DNA of 40,232 nucleotides from NCBI GenBank assembly GCA_017994695.1, contig JAGOKF010000031.1, positions 1 to 40,232 of the forward strand. The letters run 5' to 3'. Made by a program: the position numbers and the translations under genes. Shown here in pieces: positions 8,831-15,131 of this stretch. A model generated the notes under the pieces. That model was not told the origin of the DNA, did not search any database, and was given only the letters and a program-made list of their open reading frames with translations. Source of the DNA: Myxococcota bacterium. Lineage in GTDB: Bacteria > Myxococcota_A > UBA9042 > DTJE01. Within the stretch, counting starts at the first letter, position 1; each line of letters begins with the position of its first letter.

Positions 8831-9517
8831 TCAGAATCCCTGGCGGACCTCGGGAAGGAAGAAGGACACCCCGATCATCACCGTGGGGTTCTGGGTGAAC
8901 CGGGACGGCCGGGACCGGGTCTCCTGACGGGGAATCATGTAGTCGTTGACGTCCAGGTTGACCGAGAGGAGCTTGATGGGGAAGTACCGGAACCCCGCCC
9001 CGACCAGCGCGGCCACCCGGACGGTTCCGGGATGGTTCTCCCAGTCCATGTACTTCAGGGTCGCCATCCCGACCCCCACGTTGACGTGGAAGTCCACGTA
9101 TCCCAGGTAGCGCCCCCCGAGCACCAGTTTCCCTCCCAGGGGCACCACCGACGCCTTCGCCAGCGCCAGCAGCCCGATGCCCGACCGGGCGACCCGGTAG
9201 GTGTTCGGGTCCTCGGTCCGGCGCCCCTCTTCCTCGACGCCCTTCGTCAGGCCGGTCTTGAAAGAGACTCCACCGTACCCGATCTCGAGGCCCGCCGAGA
9301 TCCAGTCGGTGAAGTGGTACTGGTAGGAGGCCTGGAACACCATGTCCAGGTTGTAGGCCTTGCCCACGGTGATCCCGAAGGCCGGCGTCAGTTCGTGGCG
9401 GCCCTTCCGGAGCAGGTTCTGGTGGCGGATCGCCGGAGCGTCGGCCAGCGAGGTCATCCGGGCCTGGGCCTCCCCTGCACCCACCAACAGGAGCAGGATG
9501 ATCGCGAAGCGTTTCAT
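8831..9517 (-). CDS. Outer-membrane beta-barrel protein
   Basis: 228 residues with a signal peptide (MKRFAIILLLLVGAGEAQA) followed by alternating amphipathic strands such as ITVGKAYNLDMVFQASYQYH, ISAGLEIGYGGVSF and VRVAALVGAGFRYF. It resembles the family of myxobacterial outer-membrane barrels that start with a short conserved LLRKGRHELTPAFG-like block. Function unknown. ATG 9517 is preferred over the GTG three codons earlier because AGGAGG sits nine bases before the ATG but directly abuts the GTG. It follows the related barrel gene by 13 bases, so the two are co-transcribed and probably act together. The last residue is Phe, as usual for barrels recognised by the BAM machinery. Confidence 0.8.
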   Translation of the reverse strand: MKRFAIILLLLVGAGEAQARMTSLADAPAIRHQNLLRKGRHELTPAFGITVGKAYNLDMVFQASYQYHFTDWISAGLEIGYGGVSFKTGLTKGVEEEGRRTEDPNTYRVARSGIGLLALAKASVVPLGGKLVLGGRYLGYVDFHVNVGVGMATLKYMDWENHPGTVRVAALVGAGFRYFPIKLLSVNLDVNDYMIPRQETRSRPSRFTQNPTVMIGVSFFLPEVRQGF

Positions 9518-9530
9518 GGCGGTCACCCTC

Positions 9531-10214
9531 CTATCGCGATTCCTTGTGCTGGAAGGGCAGGAAGATGGCCAGCCCCACCGTGAAGACCACGTTGTTCACC
9601 ACCTTGTCCTGGTGGGCGTAGTTCTCCTGGAAGATGTAGTCCCGGATCTCCAGGTTGGTGGCCAGCCAGGGCGCCCACTGGAACCGCACGCCGGCCCCGA
9701 AGTTCCCGGATCCGTGGTAGCGGCCGTGGAGGGTCTTCTGGGCGCCTCCCCCGGCGATCAGGTGGAAGTCCCAGAACACCGGCCGTCCCAGGTGCGCGAA
9801 CCACAGGAACTTCCCCATCAGGGGCGAGTACTGGAGGTGGCCGCCGACGTAGAAGTCCATCAGGCGCTTTTCCGGGTAGACCTGGTAGGCCTCCCCGACC
9901 TCCCGGGCCAGGTCGGTCGACCAGCCCCAGTACTTGATGTATTCCGCCGCGATCGCCCACTCGTCCGTGATGTGGAACCGGGCCTGCACGCCAGCCCCGA
10001 CGTGCCGGGTCATCGTGTCGTTCAGGGTCAGGTGGAACGTGGGCTCCACCTCGAACCGCATGGCCTTCACGAAGGCTTTCTTCTGGAAGACCTGGATCTG
10101 GCGTTCGCTCTCCGCGGGCCCCCCGGCCTTGGGATCGGCGGGTTCCGCCCGGCCCGCCGCAGACGCCAGCAACACACTACACAAGGCAACAATCCCTGCG
10201 CCCCTCGTCTTCAT
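9531..10214 (-). CDS. Outer-membrane beta-barrel protein, paralogue of the next gene
   Basis: 227 residues. A signal peptide (IVALCSVLLASAAGRA) is followed by a short linker, then IQVFQKKAFVKAMRFEVEPTFHLTLNDT and a series of beta strands (GAGVQARFHITDEWAIAAEYIKYWG, NFGAGVRFQWAPWLATNLEIRDYIF). The final strands, LATNLEIRDYI..VVNNVVFTVGLAIFLP, align with LSVNLDVNDYM..NPTVMIGVSFFLP of the following gene, which shows the two are homologous barrels. They match the general pattern of the TIGR04565-type 'outer membrane beta-barrel domain' family of Myxococcota, by memory rather than search. It is the first gene of the leftward run from the promoter at 10248-10276 and has a GAGGG ribosome site. Confidence 0.8.
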   Translation of the reverse strand: MKTRGAGIVALCSVLLASAAGRAEPADPKAGGPAESERQIQVFQKKAFVKAMRFEVEPTFHLTLNDTMTRHVGAGVQARFHITDEWAIAAEYIKYWGWSTDLAREVGEAYQVYPEKRLMDFYVGGHLQYSPLMGKFLWFAHLGRPVFWDFHLIAGGGAQKTLHGRYHGSGNFGAGVRFQWAPWLATNLEIRDYIFQENYAHQDKVVNNVVFTVGLAIFLPFQHKESR

Positions 10215-10317: not shown

Positions 10318-11883
10318 TCACTCGACGGCGATCGTGACCGGAACGGTCATCACGTCCCCCCGGAAGGCCGGGAACACGGTGGACCGCAGCGTGGCCTCGA
10401 CGCACCCGGAGGCGCCCTTGGTCTCGCTCCCGTTGACGCTCGTCACGCTGCCGCTGTTCGAGATGGTGATCCGGGCGGTCGCGCGGAACGGCAGGGGCAG
10501 TCCCGCGGCCCGGATGCACCCCTGCAGGGCGGCCTGCTTCTTCCGGAGCACGGACGAGATCTGGGCCGACGAGAGCTGGAGGGGCAGGGAGGAGTCGTCC
10601 CCCGCCGCGGCCGGTTTCTGGGTCCCGCCGGCGGCTCCCTGGGCGGCGGGCCGATCCCTTCCCTGCGATAGGGCCGCCAGCAGCGCGTTGGCATCCTCCT
10701 CCTGGCGGGCGGCCGGCTTCGGGGACTCCGCCGGCTTGTCCGGAGCCGCGGTCGCGGAGGCGGGCTTCGGGGGGGTCTTCCCTTCCGCCCTGGCGGCCGT
10801 CTCCCTGGGCGAGTGCGCCTTCGCGGGAGCCTGGGCCGCTTCCTTCCTGGCCGGCTCCTCGGCCGCCGCGGCCGGAGCGGGGGCCTGGGGCGCCGGGGCG
10901 GCCGCCGGCTCCGGGGCCTTCGGCGGAGGCTCGGGAGGCGGAGGCACCGCCGGACGGGGCGCCTCGACGGCCACCGGAGCCGGTTCCGGCGCGGGGGACT
11001 GGGATTGCCAGAGCACCACCGCCCCGGCGATCACCACGACCCCGATCCCGATGCCCAGCCCGACCAGCAGGTTGCGCCGGCGCTGCCGCCTGCGAGCCAT
11101 CGCCTCGGCCACCTGCCGGACCTCGGCCTCGTCCAGCGTGATCCGGGGGGCCACCACCGGCGGCTGGGAGACGGCGACTTTGGTCTCCAGGGGTTCCACG
11201 GCCCGGGAGGCCGGCGGGACCTCGACCAGGGGCACCGCGGCGACGCCCCGGGTCCCCTTGCGTTGCTTGTAGTCGTCCACCGAGAAGAGGACCGACGTCT
11301 CCCGGCGCTGCCACACCAGCCCCCCGTCCCCGCCGGCGGCCTGCTCCCGGGGCGGCTCCACCGAGGGACCGGCAGGCTGGGCCCGCAGCCGTGCCACGTC
11401 CACCAGCTGGGTCGCCCCTCCGTCCTCGTCGAAGGAGTGGAAGGCCCCCCGGAATTCCTCGAACTCCCCGAGGGGGGTCCAGTCGGCGAGTCCCTTGCGC
11501 CAGGCGAGCGTTTCCAGCGTCGCCTCCTTGGAGGCGAGACGCCCCTTCACCTCCTCCATCGTGAAGGGGCCGAGGCGCTCCCCTCCCGATGCCAGGTACC
11601 ACTTCAGCGAAACCGGAGTTTCCGAGGCGCTGGCAGGCGCGGCGCTGGCGGGAGCCGAGGCCCCGACGGCCGTCGCGGCGCTCTCGACCTGGATGGCGGG
11701 GGACGACTGGGTCAGGCGCGCCTCCGGAAGTCCCGCCTCCTGGGAAGGCTCGGAGTCCGCCTCCGGCTGCACCTCGATCACCTGGCCGCACTTCTTGCAC
11801 CGGACCTTGACGGTCCCCGTTCCCCGGACCTTCTCGGCGGGCAACTTGTACGACGCGCTGCAGTTCGGACATCGGACCTTCAT
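10318..11883 (-). CDS. MJ0042 zinc-ribbon / GYF_2 / AgmX-PglI C-terminal envelope protein
   Basis: 521 residues. The N-terminus is an MJ0042-type zinc ribbon (CPNC at 5-8, CKKC at 29-32). About 93-144 form a GYF_2 domain (WYLASGGERLGPFTMEEV ... WRKGLADWTPL). After a disordered stretch there is a basic RRRQRRR, one membrane helix (271-292), a long Ala/Pro/Lys-rich periplasmic spacer (295-420) and a C-terminal TonB-like domain of the AgmX/PglI type with two conserved Cys (LQGCIRAAGLPLPFRATARITIS ... GASGCVEATL). In myxobacteria such proteins are linked to gliding-motility and envelope-energising machinery; the partner here is unknown. ATG 11883 overlaps the deiminase stop (ATGA) and has a GGGAGGAG site. 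An internal promoter may serve it alone. Confidence 0.85.
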   Translation of the reverse strand: MKVRCPNCSASYKLPAEKVRGTGTVKVRCKKCGQVIEVQPEADSEPSQEAGLPEARLTQSSPAIQVESAATAVGASAPASAAPASASETPVSLKWYLASGGERLGPFTMEEVKGRLASKEATLETLAWRKGLADWTPLGEFEEFRGAFHSFDEDGGATQLVDVARLRAQPAGPSVEPPREQAAGGDGGLVWQRRETSVLFSVDDYKQRKGTRGVAAVPLVEVPPASRAVEPLETKVAVSQPPVVAPRITLDEAEVRQVAEAMARRRQRRRNLLVGLGIGIGVVVIAGAVVLWQSQSPAPEPAPVAVEAPRPAVPPPPEPPPKAPEPAAAPAPQAPAPAAAAEEPARKEAAQAPAKAHSPRETAARAEGKTPPKPASATAAPDKPAESPKPAARQEEDANALLAALSQGRDRPAAQGAAGGTQKPAAAGDDSSLPLQLSSAQISSVLRKKQAALQGCIRAAGLPLPFRATARITISNSGSVTSVNGSETKGASGCVEATLRSTVFPAFRGDVMTVPVTIAVE

Positions 11884-13538
11884 CTTCCGCTCCTCCCTTC
11901 TGCCCGGAATACCGTCCCCCGGCTGGAACGATTCCGCGCCGTAGTATAGACCATCCATCCCAGCGCGAAAACGACGATCCTCGCGTGGCCCTTCCCGGGG
12001 CGGAATCCGTCGCCCGGAGCCGAGACGGAGCATCCGCCAGAGCGCGTTCCTCGCCCTCCGGTTCCCGGGACGCCCTCCGACATCCCCTCGTCGGCGCCTC
12101 CGGGAACGGGCTCCTCGGGGCCCCCGTCCCCGCCTTCGATCCCCGGATCCGGCAGGTTCTCTCCGGTCCCGGGGTCCCCTGCGGCGATGGCATCGGGCAG
12201 GCCGTGCTCCGACGGGGGATCGCCCGGGCCTCCCCCGGCGTCGCAATCGGGGCGATCACAGACCCAGGCCGGTCCCTGGCAGTCCGAAGAATCGAGGCAT
12301 TCCCCCTGGAAGGCCCCCTCGGGGGCAAGGCACGTCCCCTCCAGGCACTGGCCGTCCTGGACCCGTTTCGCCAGCGTTCCCATGGGAATGGTCCGGGCGA
12401 TGCAGTGCAGGGCCCCTCCCCAGCCGATGATCCCCTCGGACTCGACGGGCACCACCCGGGCGCCGGGGACCGCCCGGCTCCATGCCGCAAGGGCCTCGGT
12501 CTCCAGGCCCCGATCGGCCTCGTAGACCGGCACCAGCACCACCCCGTTGACCATCGCCGCATTGGTGTAGGTCCGCCAGACGCCGTCGAGCTGGTAGGGC
12601 ATCGGGATGCGGATCACCTCCAGGCGGGTGCCGTCCCGGCGAACCACCTCCTCCAGGATCGCCGCGTTCGCCTCCAGGTTCCCGACGGTCTCCTCCGTGT
12701 TGCGGTCCGGGCTGCCCTGGCCCAGCAGGAAGGTCCGGGGGCCGGCGAGCCGTCCCAGCATGTCCAGGTGGTGCGTGCCGTCCGCCAGCGGGAACAGGAC
12801 CACGAGCCGGTCGCAGCCGAGATACTCCCGGAGCATTCCCCGGATCTCCTCCTCGGTGCGATCGGGGTTGCCCTGGAACAGACGCCGGGTGGTGTAGCAG
12901 GTGCCTTCCCCGTCGCCCTGGAGGTTGCCTCCCTCCAGGTCCAGAGGGGGGCGATAGGTCGTTACGCCGAGGAGGCGTCCCAGCCAGGAAGGGACCGCGT
13001 CGTCCCGGGGGCGATCCCGGAAGTAGCGGAAATCCGCGAAGGCCAGCCGGCCCCGGTCGTCCAGCAGCGGGACCGGCCCGAAGTCCATCGTCCAGAGGGA
13101 TTCGGTGGCGAACGGAAGGAAGCGCACCCGTTCCTCGAGGTCCGATGGGGACAGGCCCGCCGCCAGCAGGTTGTCCTCCATCACCCTCCGGATGCTCGCG
13201 CCGGGAACGAGCACGTGCCACTCCGCCTCCCGGATCCCCTCCCGGATCATCCCGGCCAGGATCCCGTGAATGGATGCCCCCAGGTCGTCGGGGAGGTCCA
13301 GCAGCACGGACCGGACCGGCTCCCACTCCCCGGGCAGCCGGAAGGCCCCCTCGGGAGGGACCGTGACGGCGTAGTACTCCGGGTGATCCGCCCGGGGATC
13401 GGACGCCGGGGACTGCAGGAAACGGGACTCCTGGCGAACGGCCGAAGGCCATGCCGGGAGGATCGCCAGCGCGGGACCGACCGCCGCCGATGTCAGGACC
13501 TGGAATCCCAGCAGGCCCCCCAGGAGCAGCCCCTTCAT
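11880..13538 (-). CDS. Secreted agmatine/peptidylarginine deiminase family protein with C-terminal anchor tail
   Basis: 552 residues. A signal peptide (MKGLLLGGLLGFQVLTSAAVGPALA) shows export. The guanidine-modifying fold of the PAD_porph family (about 50-385) carries TMDFGP (Asp152), LEGGNLQGDG (199-210), DGTHHLDM (His256/His257, Asp259) and the nucleophile block GWGGALHC (Cys379). Such enzymes hydrolyse arginine-like guanidino groups to ureido groups plus ammonia. Cytosolic agmatine deiminases lack a signal peptide, so a secreted one may act on peptidyl-arginine or external agmatine; this is inference. Residues 394-432 are Cys-rich, 433-495 an Asp/Pro/Gly tether, then SGGCS (500-504), a hydrophobic helix (about 520-533) and RNRSSR, a MYXO-CTERM-like tail. 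ATG 13538 is chosen for the signal peptide. It lies 61 bases after the helicase gene. Confidence 0.82.
   Translation of the reverse strand: MKGLLLGGLLGFQVLTSAAVGPALAILPAWPSAVRQESRFLQSPASDPRADHPEYYAVTVPPEGAFRLPGEWEPVRSVLLDLPDDLGASIHGILAGMIREGIREAEWHVLVPGASIRRVMEDNLLAAGLSPSDLEERVRFLPFATESLWTMDFGPVPLLDDRGRLAFADFRYFRDRPRDDAVPSWLGRLLGVTTYRPPLDLEGGNLQGDGEGTCYTTRRLFQGNPDRTEEEIRGMLREYLGCDRLVVLFPLADGTHHLDMLGRLAGPRTFLLGQGSPDRNTEETVGNLEANAAILEEVVRRDGTRLEVIRIPMPYQLDGVWRTYTNAAMVNGVVLVPVYEADRGLETEALAAWSRAVPGARVVPVESEGIIGWGGALHCIARTIPMGTLAKRVQDGQCLEGTCLAPEGAFQGECLDSSDCQGPAWVCDRPDCDAGGGPGDPPSEHGLPDAIAAGDPGTGENLPDPGIEGGDGGPEEPVPGGADEGMSEGVPGTGGRGTRSGGCSVSAPGDGFRPGKGHARIVVFALGWMVYTTARNRSSRGTVFRAEGRSGR
11943..11948 (-). 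promoter_or_regulatory. Possible internal -10 for the MJ0042/AgmX gene
   Basis: On the minus strand TATACT is preceded by TGGTC and followed by ACGGCGCGG, like other -10 boxes in this window. It lies inside the 3' end of the deiminase gene, 59 bases before the MJ0042 ATG. Confidence 0.4.
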
Positions 13539-13599
13539 CCCGACGGCCCCCTTTCCTGGAACGGGTCCCCAGGGCACCACCCCCGGACATCACCGGTCC

Positions 13600-14952
13600 T
13601 CACGCCCGGAACCCCCGGTAGACCCGGGCCCTCCGGATCGCCTGGTTCCGGAGCATCGGCACCCGGCGGTCCACGAAATCCACCACCACGGCCCGGGTCT
13701 TGCCGGGGGACGGGCGCAGGGCCCGGCCCAGAGACTGGGTGGTCCGGGCGACGTTGCCGCTGGGGGTCGTCAGGAACACCGTGTCCAGTTCCGGCAGGTC
13801 GAACCCCTCCCCCACCAGGGAGGTCGTCGCGACCAGCACGTCCAGTTCCCCGCCGGCCAGCCGGGCCAGCACCTGCTGCCGCTCGTCCCGGGGAACCTCC
13901 CCGGTCAGGAACGCCGTGCGAAGCCCCTGCCGTCCCAGCGCCTCGGCCAGCCAGTGGCAGTGGTCCACCCGGTCCGTCAGCACCAGGGATCGCTGCCCGC
14001 GATGCCGCCGCACGTTCTCGACGATGCAGGCGTTGCGGTCGGGGTCCCGGACCAGCCGTTCCACCAGCCGGGCGAAGTTCCGGCGATAGCGGGCCTCGAA
14101 GGAGGTCTCCACCTCGACGACCTCCACCGGCACCAGGGCGCCGCCGGCCACCAGGTCCCGGGCCGGAACCCGATGGACCAGGGGCCCGACGACCTCGTAG
14201 AGGACGGGGTGGAGGCGGTCCTTCCGGGTCGGCGTCGCGGTGAGCCCGATCCGCCAGCGGGCCGCGAAGGCCTGGACCAGCGACTGGAAACTGTCCGCCG
14301 GGCAGTGGTGGCACTCGTCCAGCACCACCATCCCGAAGGCCTCCCGCAGGGGGGCCAGGTCCCGGCGCCGGAGCGTCTGCACCATCGCCACGGTGACGTC
14401 CCGAAGGTCCTCCCGGCCGGCGCCGATCACCCCGGGTTCCATCCCCAGGAAGGCCCGCAGCCGTTCGACCGTCTGGTCCAGCAGGACTCCGGTGTGGACC
14501 AGGATCAGCGTGCGTACCCGGACCCGGGAGATCAGCGCCGCGGTGATGACCGTCTTCCCGCTGCCTGTGGGAGCCTGGAGGACCCCTTCCTCGGCTTCCA
14601 CCAGGCGATCCACGGCCTCCTGCTGGTAGTCCCGCAACTCCCCCCGGAAGGGAGGCAGCGACGCCGCCGGTGCCGAGCGGCGGTCCTCCACCGTCGCCCC
14701 GAAGGGTGCCACCAGGGATCGGACGAGCCCCGAGACCCCCCGGGGCAGGGAGACCTCGGCGGCCCCCTCCCGGCGGAACAGCCGGATCTCCCTCGGGATA
14801 TGGCGGCAGGGGCGCCGGTTGCGCCGGGCGTCCCAGTAGACCGGGTTCTCGTGGGTGAATCGCTTCTCGAGGCCCTCCACGAGGTCCGCCTGCCGGCCGT
14901 CCTCCAGGTCCAGGTCGAGGATCCGGATGCGCTCGTCCAGCAGGCACCGCAT
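13600..14952 (-). CDS. Superfamily 2 DEAD/DEAH-box helicase (UvsW/XPB-like layout)
   Basis: 450 residues, an ATP-dependent nucleic-acid translocase. After a 100-residue N-terminal domain come LRDYQQEAVDRL, Walker A APTGSGKT (127-134), motif Ib VAMVQTL, motif II DECHH (212-216), motif III TAT (238-240), a C-terminal RecA lobe with LVATTSLVGEGFDLPELDTV and motif VI QSLGRALRPSPGK (406-418). The compact ResIII plus Helicase_C layout resembles phage UvsW and XPB-type helicases that act on branched or damaged DNA, but there is no nuclease domain. ATG 14952 has a GGGAGGG site. It heads the leftward run with the deiminase and MJ0042 genes; no functional link to them is obvious. Confidence 0.88.
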   Translation of the reverse strand: MRCLLDERIRILDLDLEDGRQADLVEGLEKRFTHENPVYWDARRNRRPCRHIPREIRLFRREGAAEVSLPRGVSGLVRSLVAPFGATVEDRRSAPAASLPPFRGELRDYQQEAVDRLVEAEEGVLQAPTGSGKTVITAALISRVRVRTLILVHTGVLLDQTVERLRAFLGMEPGVIGAGREDLRDVTVAMVQTLRRRDLAPLREAFGMVVLDECHHCPADSFQSLVQAFAARWRIGLTATPTRKDRLHPVLYEVVGPLVHRVPARDLVAGGALVPVEVVEVETSFEARYRRNFARLVERLVRDPDRNACIVENVRRHRGQRSLVLTDRVDHCHWLAEALGRQGLRTAFLTGEVPRDERQQVLARLAGGELDVLVATTSLVGEGFDLPELDTVFLTTPSGNVARTTQSLGRALRPSPGKTRAVVVDFVDRRVPMLRNQAIRRARVYRGFRA

Positions 14953-15131
14953 GTCCCTCCCTTGCCAGAACCCGCCCCCGGCGTCAACGGGGAGACGGCC
15001 CGGGGTCCAGGGTGCCGAGAACCCGACCCCCGAGGATGGTTCCCGGCTCCCCGACCCGCGGCCCGGAAAGACGCGCACCGGCCGGCGACGGTCGGATCCG
15101 CGACGGCGGCACTGCCCGGCGCGGAGAGGCG

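Follow-up and report, generated by a model that had tools for sequence, protein, structure and literature searches.

The question raised by this locus is whether a predicted exported deiminase, encoded in a window of 40,232 nucleotides (the whole stretch of DNA analysed), acts as an agmatine deiminase or as a relative of the peptidylarginine deiminase (PPAD) of Porphyromonas, and whether it is held at the cell surface. PPAD, which has been linked to rheumatoid arthritis, is frequently described as found in Porphyromonas only. Two genes are needed for the description:

11880..13538, minus strand: deiminase gene, ATG at 13538, stop at 11880, 552 aa (PF04371 match and GC3).
10318..11883, minus strand: next gene, a zinc-ribbon/GYF-type protein (domain names by eye from sequence; synteny).

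The open reading frame at 11880-13538 of the minus strand, proposed in an earlier note on this DNA, is borne out by a full-length Pfam match and a coding signature. GC3 is 0.82–0.97 across the catalytic domain, so the frame is a real gene; its 552 codons contain no stop or frameshift. A genome search over the 3.96 Mb assembly gives it as the one PF04371 gene (E 3e-44). The stop codon overlaps the ATG of the zinc-ribbon gene (ATGA at 11880-11883). Parts of the encoded protein:

13464..13538, minus strand: signal peptide-like N terminus, residues 1-25, M K plus hydrophobic core, ends ALA (by eye).
12384..13340, minus strand: PAD_porph (pentein-fold) catalytic domain, residues 67-385 (Pfam, structure model, Foldseek).
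12243..12347, minus strand: single Cys-rich module, C398-C432 (sequence compared with relatives).
12039..12242, minus strand: acidic Gly/Pro tether, residues 433-500 (sequence).
11883..12038, minus strand: degenerate MYXO-CTERM-like tail, residues 501-552, with GGC503S and hydrophobic I521-A534 (TIGR03901, hydropathy, GC pattern, G001 alignment).

A signal-peptide-like N terminus, a Cys-rich module and an acidic Pro/Gly tether, all named earlier, are seen directly in the sequence. Residues 67-385 match the PF04371 PAD_porph model over positions 1-321 of 321 (E 1.2e-43; 150 bits against a gathering score of 25), covering the whole domain. Alignment with PPAD (PDB 4yt9) extends over residues 59-382 without large gaps. 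The catalytic set of PPAD is D130, H236, D238, N297 and C351 (PMC4893104). Aligned positions in the deiminase:

13083..13085, minus strand: Asp152 = PPAD Asp130, predicted guanidinium-binding (alignment; role from PMC4893104).
12768..12770, minus strand: His257 = PPAD His236 (invariant column).
12762..12764, minus strand: Asp259 = PPAD Asp238 (invariant column).
12561..12563, minus strand: Asn326 = PPAD Asn297 (invariant column).
12402..12404, minus strand: Cys379 = PPAD Cys351, predicted nucleophile (invariant column).

All five are invariant in the aligned exported proteins (98/98). These proteins were gathered by similarity to the deiminase and by the pattern [DEN][SA][ILN]Wx[IRM]D[YF]GP around W149-D152, so the conservation of W149 and D152 is partly due to selection. 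Catalytic blocks had been named in the earlier note: Asp152, His257, Asp259 and Cys379 are present as described, but His256 is variable and not catalytic, and W149 and N326, also present, were missing from that list. Loss of catalytic residues, named there as evidence against the reading, is not seen; all five catalytic positions are kept.

Cytosolic and exported enzymes separate in a tree of 110 proteins, drawn from same-class genomes, from named GTDB contigs and from the PDB (quick search without bootstrap, SH-aLRT support). Agmatine deiminases, including 1xkn, 1zbr and Arabidopsis 1vkp, split off at 100% SH-aLRT; the deiminase lies together with PPAD of Porphyromonas and some 95 further exported proteins, opposite all cytosolic agmatine deiminases. 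Clustering with agmatine-specific enzymes, envisaged earlier as a possible outcome, is thus not found. Sister to the G011 and G012 copies with 96% support, the deiminase has a branch length of 1.08 versus about 0.4 in these copies. Placement of PPAD inside the exported group is weak (80%), on a long branch. A single-sequence search of the PDB gives PPAD as best match at 6.8e-22 with 1zbr level at 8.6e-22; the exported-clade profile gives PPAD at 5.2e-49 and the best other entry at 1e-34. The NCBIfam agmatine-deiminase equivalog TIGR03380 scores the deiminase at 73.7 bits versus a cut-off of 381.8. Mean pLDDT of the AlphaFold2 model, built with 19 sequences, is 85.5. Foldseek matches both PPAD and agmatine deiminases, so the modelled structure fits but leaves the substrate undecided: by E-value the agmatine-clade structure 1xkn is level with PPAD, 2jer is also a strong match, and the lowest rmsd among the top hits, 2.2 Å, is that of 4ytg, PPAD C351A with a dipeptide. 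Taken by sequence comparison, assignment to the PPAD-type branch, not to the agmatine-deiminase side, is supported.

The deiminase shares with Porphyromonas gingivalis PPAD (4yt9, 4ytb, 4ytg, 5ak7) the Pfam family, predicted export, catalytic set, R152/R154-aligned arginines and side of the tree. It differs in being known from sequence alone, in an identity of about 25%, in Gly for Tyr233, and in having a Cys module, tether and MYXO-CTERM-like tail beyond the catalytic domain, where PPAD has an Ig-like domain and a T9SS tail. Fold and core catalytic residues are common to cytosolic agmatine deiminase (AguA, TIGR03380; 2jer, 3h7c, 1vkp), but AguA, a separate clade at 100% support, has an NxWGGK-type segment where the deiminase has RxR..DD. 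Animal-type PADI (PF03068) and Giardia-type ADI are distant pentein-fold citrullinating enzymes of separate families; human PAD4 and PAD3 are matched weakly by Foldseek (TM about 0.5). The three types, PPAD, PADI and Giardia-type ADI, are treated as phyletically distinct (PMC8826395).

In PPAD, R152 and R154 bind the carboxylate of a C-terminal arginine substrate, and mutants show R152 to matter more than R154 (PMC4893104). Their counterparts:

13017..13019, minus strand: Arg174, aligned with PPAD Arg152, carboxylate-binding there (alignment).
13011..13013, minus strand: Arg176, aligned with PPAD Arg154 (alignment).

The Arg176 column lies outside the collection pattern. Of the 98 exported proteins, 96 have R in it, whereas none of the 11 agmatine-deiminase-type proteins of related genomes does: these have S, A or P, beside an NxWGGK-type segment. 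At the Arg174 column R is found in 47/98 exported proteins; the nearest relatives mostly have H or P, and because of this the carboxylate-binding case leans on R176. The position of PPAD Tyr233 is Gly254, and Tyr233 is not kept in relatives. Carboxylate binding by the deiminase is thus a proposal that rests on R176 and on one alignment column for R174. The contrast in residues between the exported and the cytosolic clade, as it appears in the alignment, is a new addition here.

In relatives from the class, an extended Cys-rich region is followed by a tail made up of Gly-Cys, a hydrophobic helix and a basic end; the Cys module of the deiminase corresponds to the first of several in relatives of 700-1300 aa. 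The surface-anchor, MYXO-CTERM-like tail described earlier holds for the family, in which many relatives have such a tail and most also a lipobox, but is weak in the deiminase itself, with neither lipobox nor TIGR03901 match and with a poorly hydrophobic helix. A loose-pattern scan detects no lipobox Cys in its N terminus, whereas 29 of the 36 relatives whose sequence includes the N terminus have one. No match of TIGR03901 to its tail is obtained at E<=10. Cys503 after Gly-Gly (GGCS) and basic residues are present, with 18 residues after the hydrophobic stretch. The best 15-residue hydropathy is 1.38, versus mostly 2.0-2.9 in relatives with such tails. GC by codon position loses its coding pattern in the last 150 bases (0.58/0.66/0.74, versus 0.74/0.49/0.90 elsewhere in the gene). 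Among relatives, L034 exceeds the cut-off of TIGR03901, which L005 and L006 narrowly miss; seven proteins of the source genome also lie above it. Tails of this kind, carried by relatives, are those of MYXO-CTERM proteins sorted by myxosortase MrtX (TIGR03901, NF040593; PMC11980579), but the deiminase tail is unrecognised, and the MrtX-like CPBP protein of the genome (L139, G000:C150:6829-7143) is below the NF040593 cut-off (104.9 versus 180 bits). The tail may be a MYXO-CTERM being, or already, worn down. Anchoring is probably weak or lost, judging from these features.

The deiminase gene is absent in G001, the only other sampled genome of the genus. Spacing from helicase to zinc-ribbon gene is about 200 bp there versus about 1.7 kb in the source genome. 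The locus is otherwise collinear, most neighbours having 81-97% protein identity. Tail DNA (last ~150 bases) is common to both genomes, with 84% identity over 251 aligned columns and the last 47 identical; in G001 it is the non-coding leader of the zinc-ribbon gene (L032:8713-10340, G001:C9, versus window 11880-15021). The deiminase tail DNA is read here as probably now conserved in its role as leader of the zinc-ribbon gene. Inside the tail, a TATACT box (window 11948-11943, minus strand) is conserved with G001; a promoter scan of the tail found no full sigma-70 promoter, and such a promoter for the zinc-ribbon gene is a possibility only. In G011, G012 and G007 too the helicase gene is followed by that of the deiminase, and in G011 and G007 the zinc-ribbon gene comes after it, so the deiminase gene was most likely lost in G001. 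Gain in the source lineage is rejected, given this gene order and a tree that follows kinship. Two adjacent related putative outer-membrane barrels (window 8831-10214, about 24% identical mutually) adjoin the zinc-ribbon gene and are kept in G001 and G007.

From these data the protein is probably, with some reserve, an exported PPAD-type PF04371 deiminase whose substrate is arginine, either free or at a peptide's C terminus, rather than agmatine. Export would be by Sec through a cleavable signal peptide. The pentein-fold domain would fold outside the cytoplasm, where conserved C214, C242 and C398 may form disulphides. Asp152 and Asp259 would hold the substrate guanidinium and Cys379 would attack it, with His257 as acid/base; ammonia would leave and water release citrulline. 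Since Arg176, aided by Arg174, would bind a free carboxylate, the expected substrates are free L-arginine and peptide C-terminal arginine, rather than agmatine or internal arginines. Family members would be located at the cell surface via MYXO-CTERM, often plus an N-terminal lipid. With its anchoring probably weak or lost, the deiminase may be released or remain in the inner membrane/periplasm. The benefit could be nitrogen/ammonia release or control of external arginine. Besides peptidyl arginine, PPAD also accepts the free amino acid and sets its availability (PMC7847538). The earlier proposal, conversion of external arginine residues to citrulline, stands as far as an exported, catalytically intact protein of the PPAD side is predicted; it was too broad in its substrate, PPAD acting on C-terminal and free arginine. 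One C25 gingipain-type peptidase gene occurs in the source genome (L146, G000:C144:10082-11191, E 2e-39). A fixed partnership of the deiminase with such a protease is rejected: C25 is found in 19/35 genomes with an exported deiminase and 8/18 without (53 genomes; Fisher p 0.57).

Three other explanations are weighed against this activity. An exported agmatine deiminase is highly improbable. It has in its favour the common Pfam family and fold, the strong structural matches to 1xkn and 2jer and sub-threshold scores with NCBIfam agmatine models, but the deiminase lies outside the fully supported agmatine clade, scores far under the equivalog cut-off and has R176 instead of the NxWGGK-type segment. 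No gene at cut-off is found in the genome for N-carbamoylputrescine amidase (AguB; best 104 versus 410 bits) or SpeA (best 55 versus 624 bits), which leaves the agmatine route that AguA would serve without clear metabolic backing; the assembly being 97% complete, their absence there is not proof. Rather unlikely, though less so, is an exported enzyme mainly for free arginine or another small guanidine, with a nutritional role (citrulline plus ammonia) and peptides as minor substrates or none. The lack of a partner protease, without co-occurrence of C25 peptidases, the use of free arginine by PPAD itself and the absence in relatives of PPAD Tyr233 and often Arg152 agree with it; against it, the examined residues cannot separate free from C-terminal arginine, and the same branch holds a proven peptidyl-arginine enzyme.

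A gene in decay, still coding for the enzyme fold in a protein no longer sorted or needed in the source lineage, has a small probability, below that of the nutritional enzyme and somewhat above that of the agmatine deiminase. Loss in G001, where a spacer of 200 bp remains, the lost lipobox, the degenerate tail and a Cys-rich part cut from several modules to one are in line with it. So is the branch length: the excess of the deiminase branch over its sisters, about twofold, exceeds that of the flanking helicase, at most 1.5-fold, the helicase being the only neighbour usable for this comparison because most other flanking orthologue pieces are fragments. Against decay are the intact reading frame, high GC3 and the retention of all invariant catalytic residues. 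The long branch and the absence in the same-genus genome suggest relaxed constraint on a gene that is still probably a PPAD-type arginine deiminase.

Exported relatives are not confined to this lineage. The deiminase is matched in 44 of 53 related genomes, in some only via their cytosolic agmatine deiminase. Relatives are encoded in 433 of 450 candidate stretches of GTDB contigs by an alignment-based scan; a single-protein scan of GTDB contigs found none. By this count the exported branch is not rare. Among the hosts that have names are uncultured Myxococcales, Bacteroidota such as Phaeodactylibacter xiamenensis, Ignavibacteriota, Calditrichota, WOR-3 and Latescibacterota. Almost all GTDB relatives start, as judged by eye, with a signal peptide, and tails are T9SS-like in Bacteroidota-type relatives and MYXO-CTERM-like in Myxococcota ones. 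One paper had already described PPAD-type genes as having a broader distribution than was assumed (PMC8826395), so breadth alone is no novelty; what goes beyond it is the sorting variant in Myxococcota. It is proposed tentatively, as a conceivable but doubtful generalization, that extracellular protein/peptide citrullination is widespread in bacteria, by a PPAD-type clade across Myxococcota, Bacteroidota, Calditrichota, WOR-3 and others, each with its own surface sorting (MYXO-CTERM plus lipobox in the present family, T9SS-like tails for Bacteroidota), and with PPAD as one late member. If true, an exported PPAD-type branch with a near-universal carboxylate-binding arginine would open citrullination by environmental bacteria to direct tests, and would point to PPAD as an outgrowth of an old environmental enzyme, not an oral-pathogen invention.

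Further variants occur among the relatives. L003, L004, L006, L007, L033, L034 and others have an N-terminal lipobox plus a C-terminal MYXO-CTERM-like tail, which together would give one protein an anchor at each terminus. In L022-L031, which form family f6 of the class, a Cys-rich segment of about 60 residues is inserted into the catalytic domain and separates the Asn block from the Cys block; several of these relatives are tandem copies, e.g., G032:C49, G036:C54 and G050:C68. L086, L088, L091, L095, L104 and L127 (Sumerlaeota, UBP6-type) have an acidic tether and end, at the very C terminus and with no TM helix, in GCS/GCGCS plus 3-4 residues, most of them hydrophobic; these short ends are possibly another Cys-based sorting signal.
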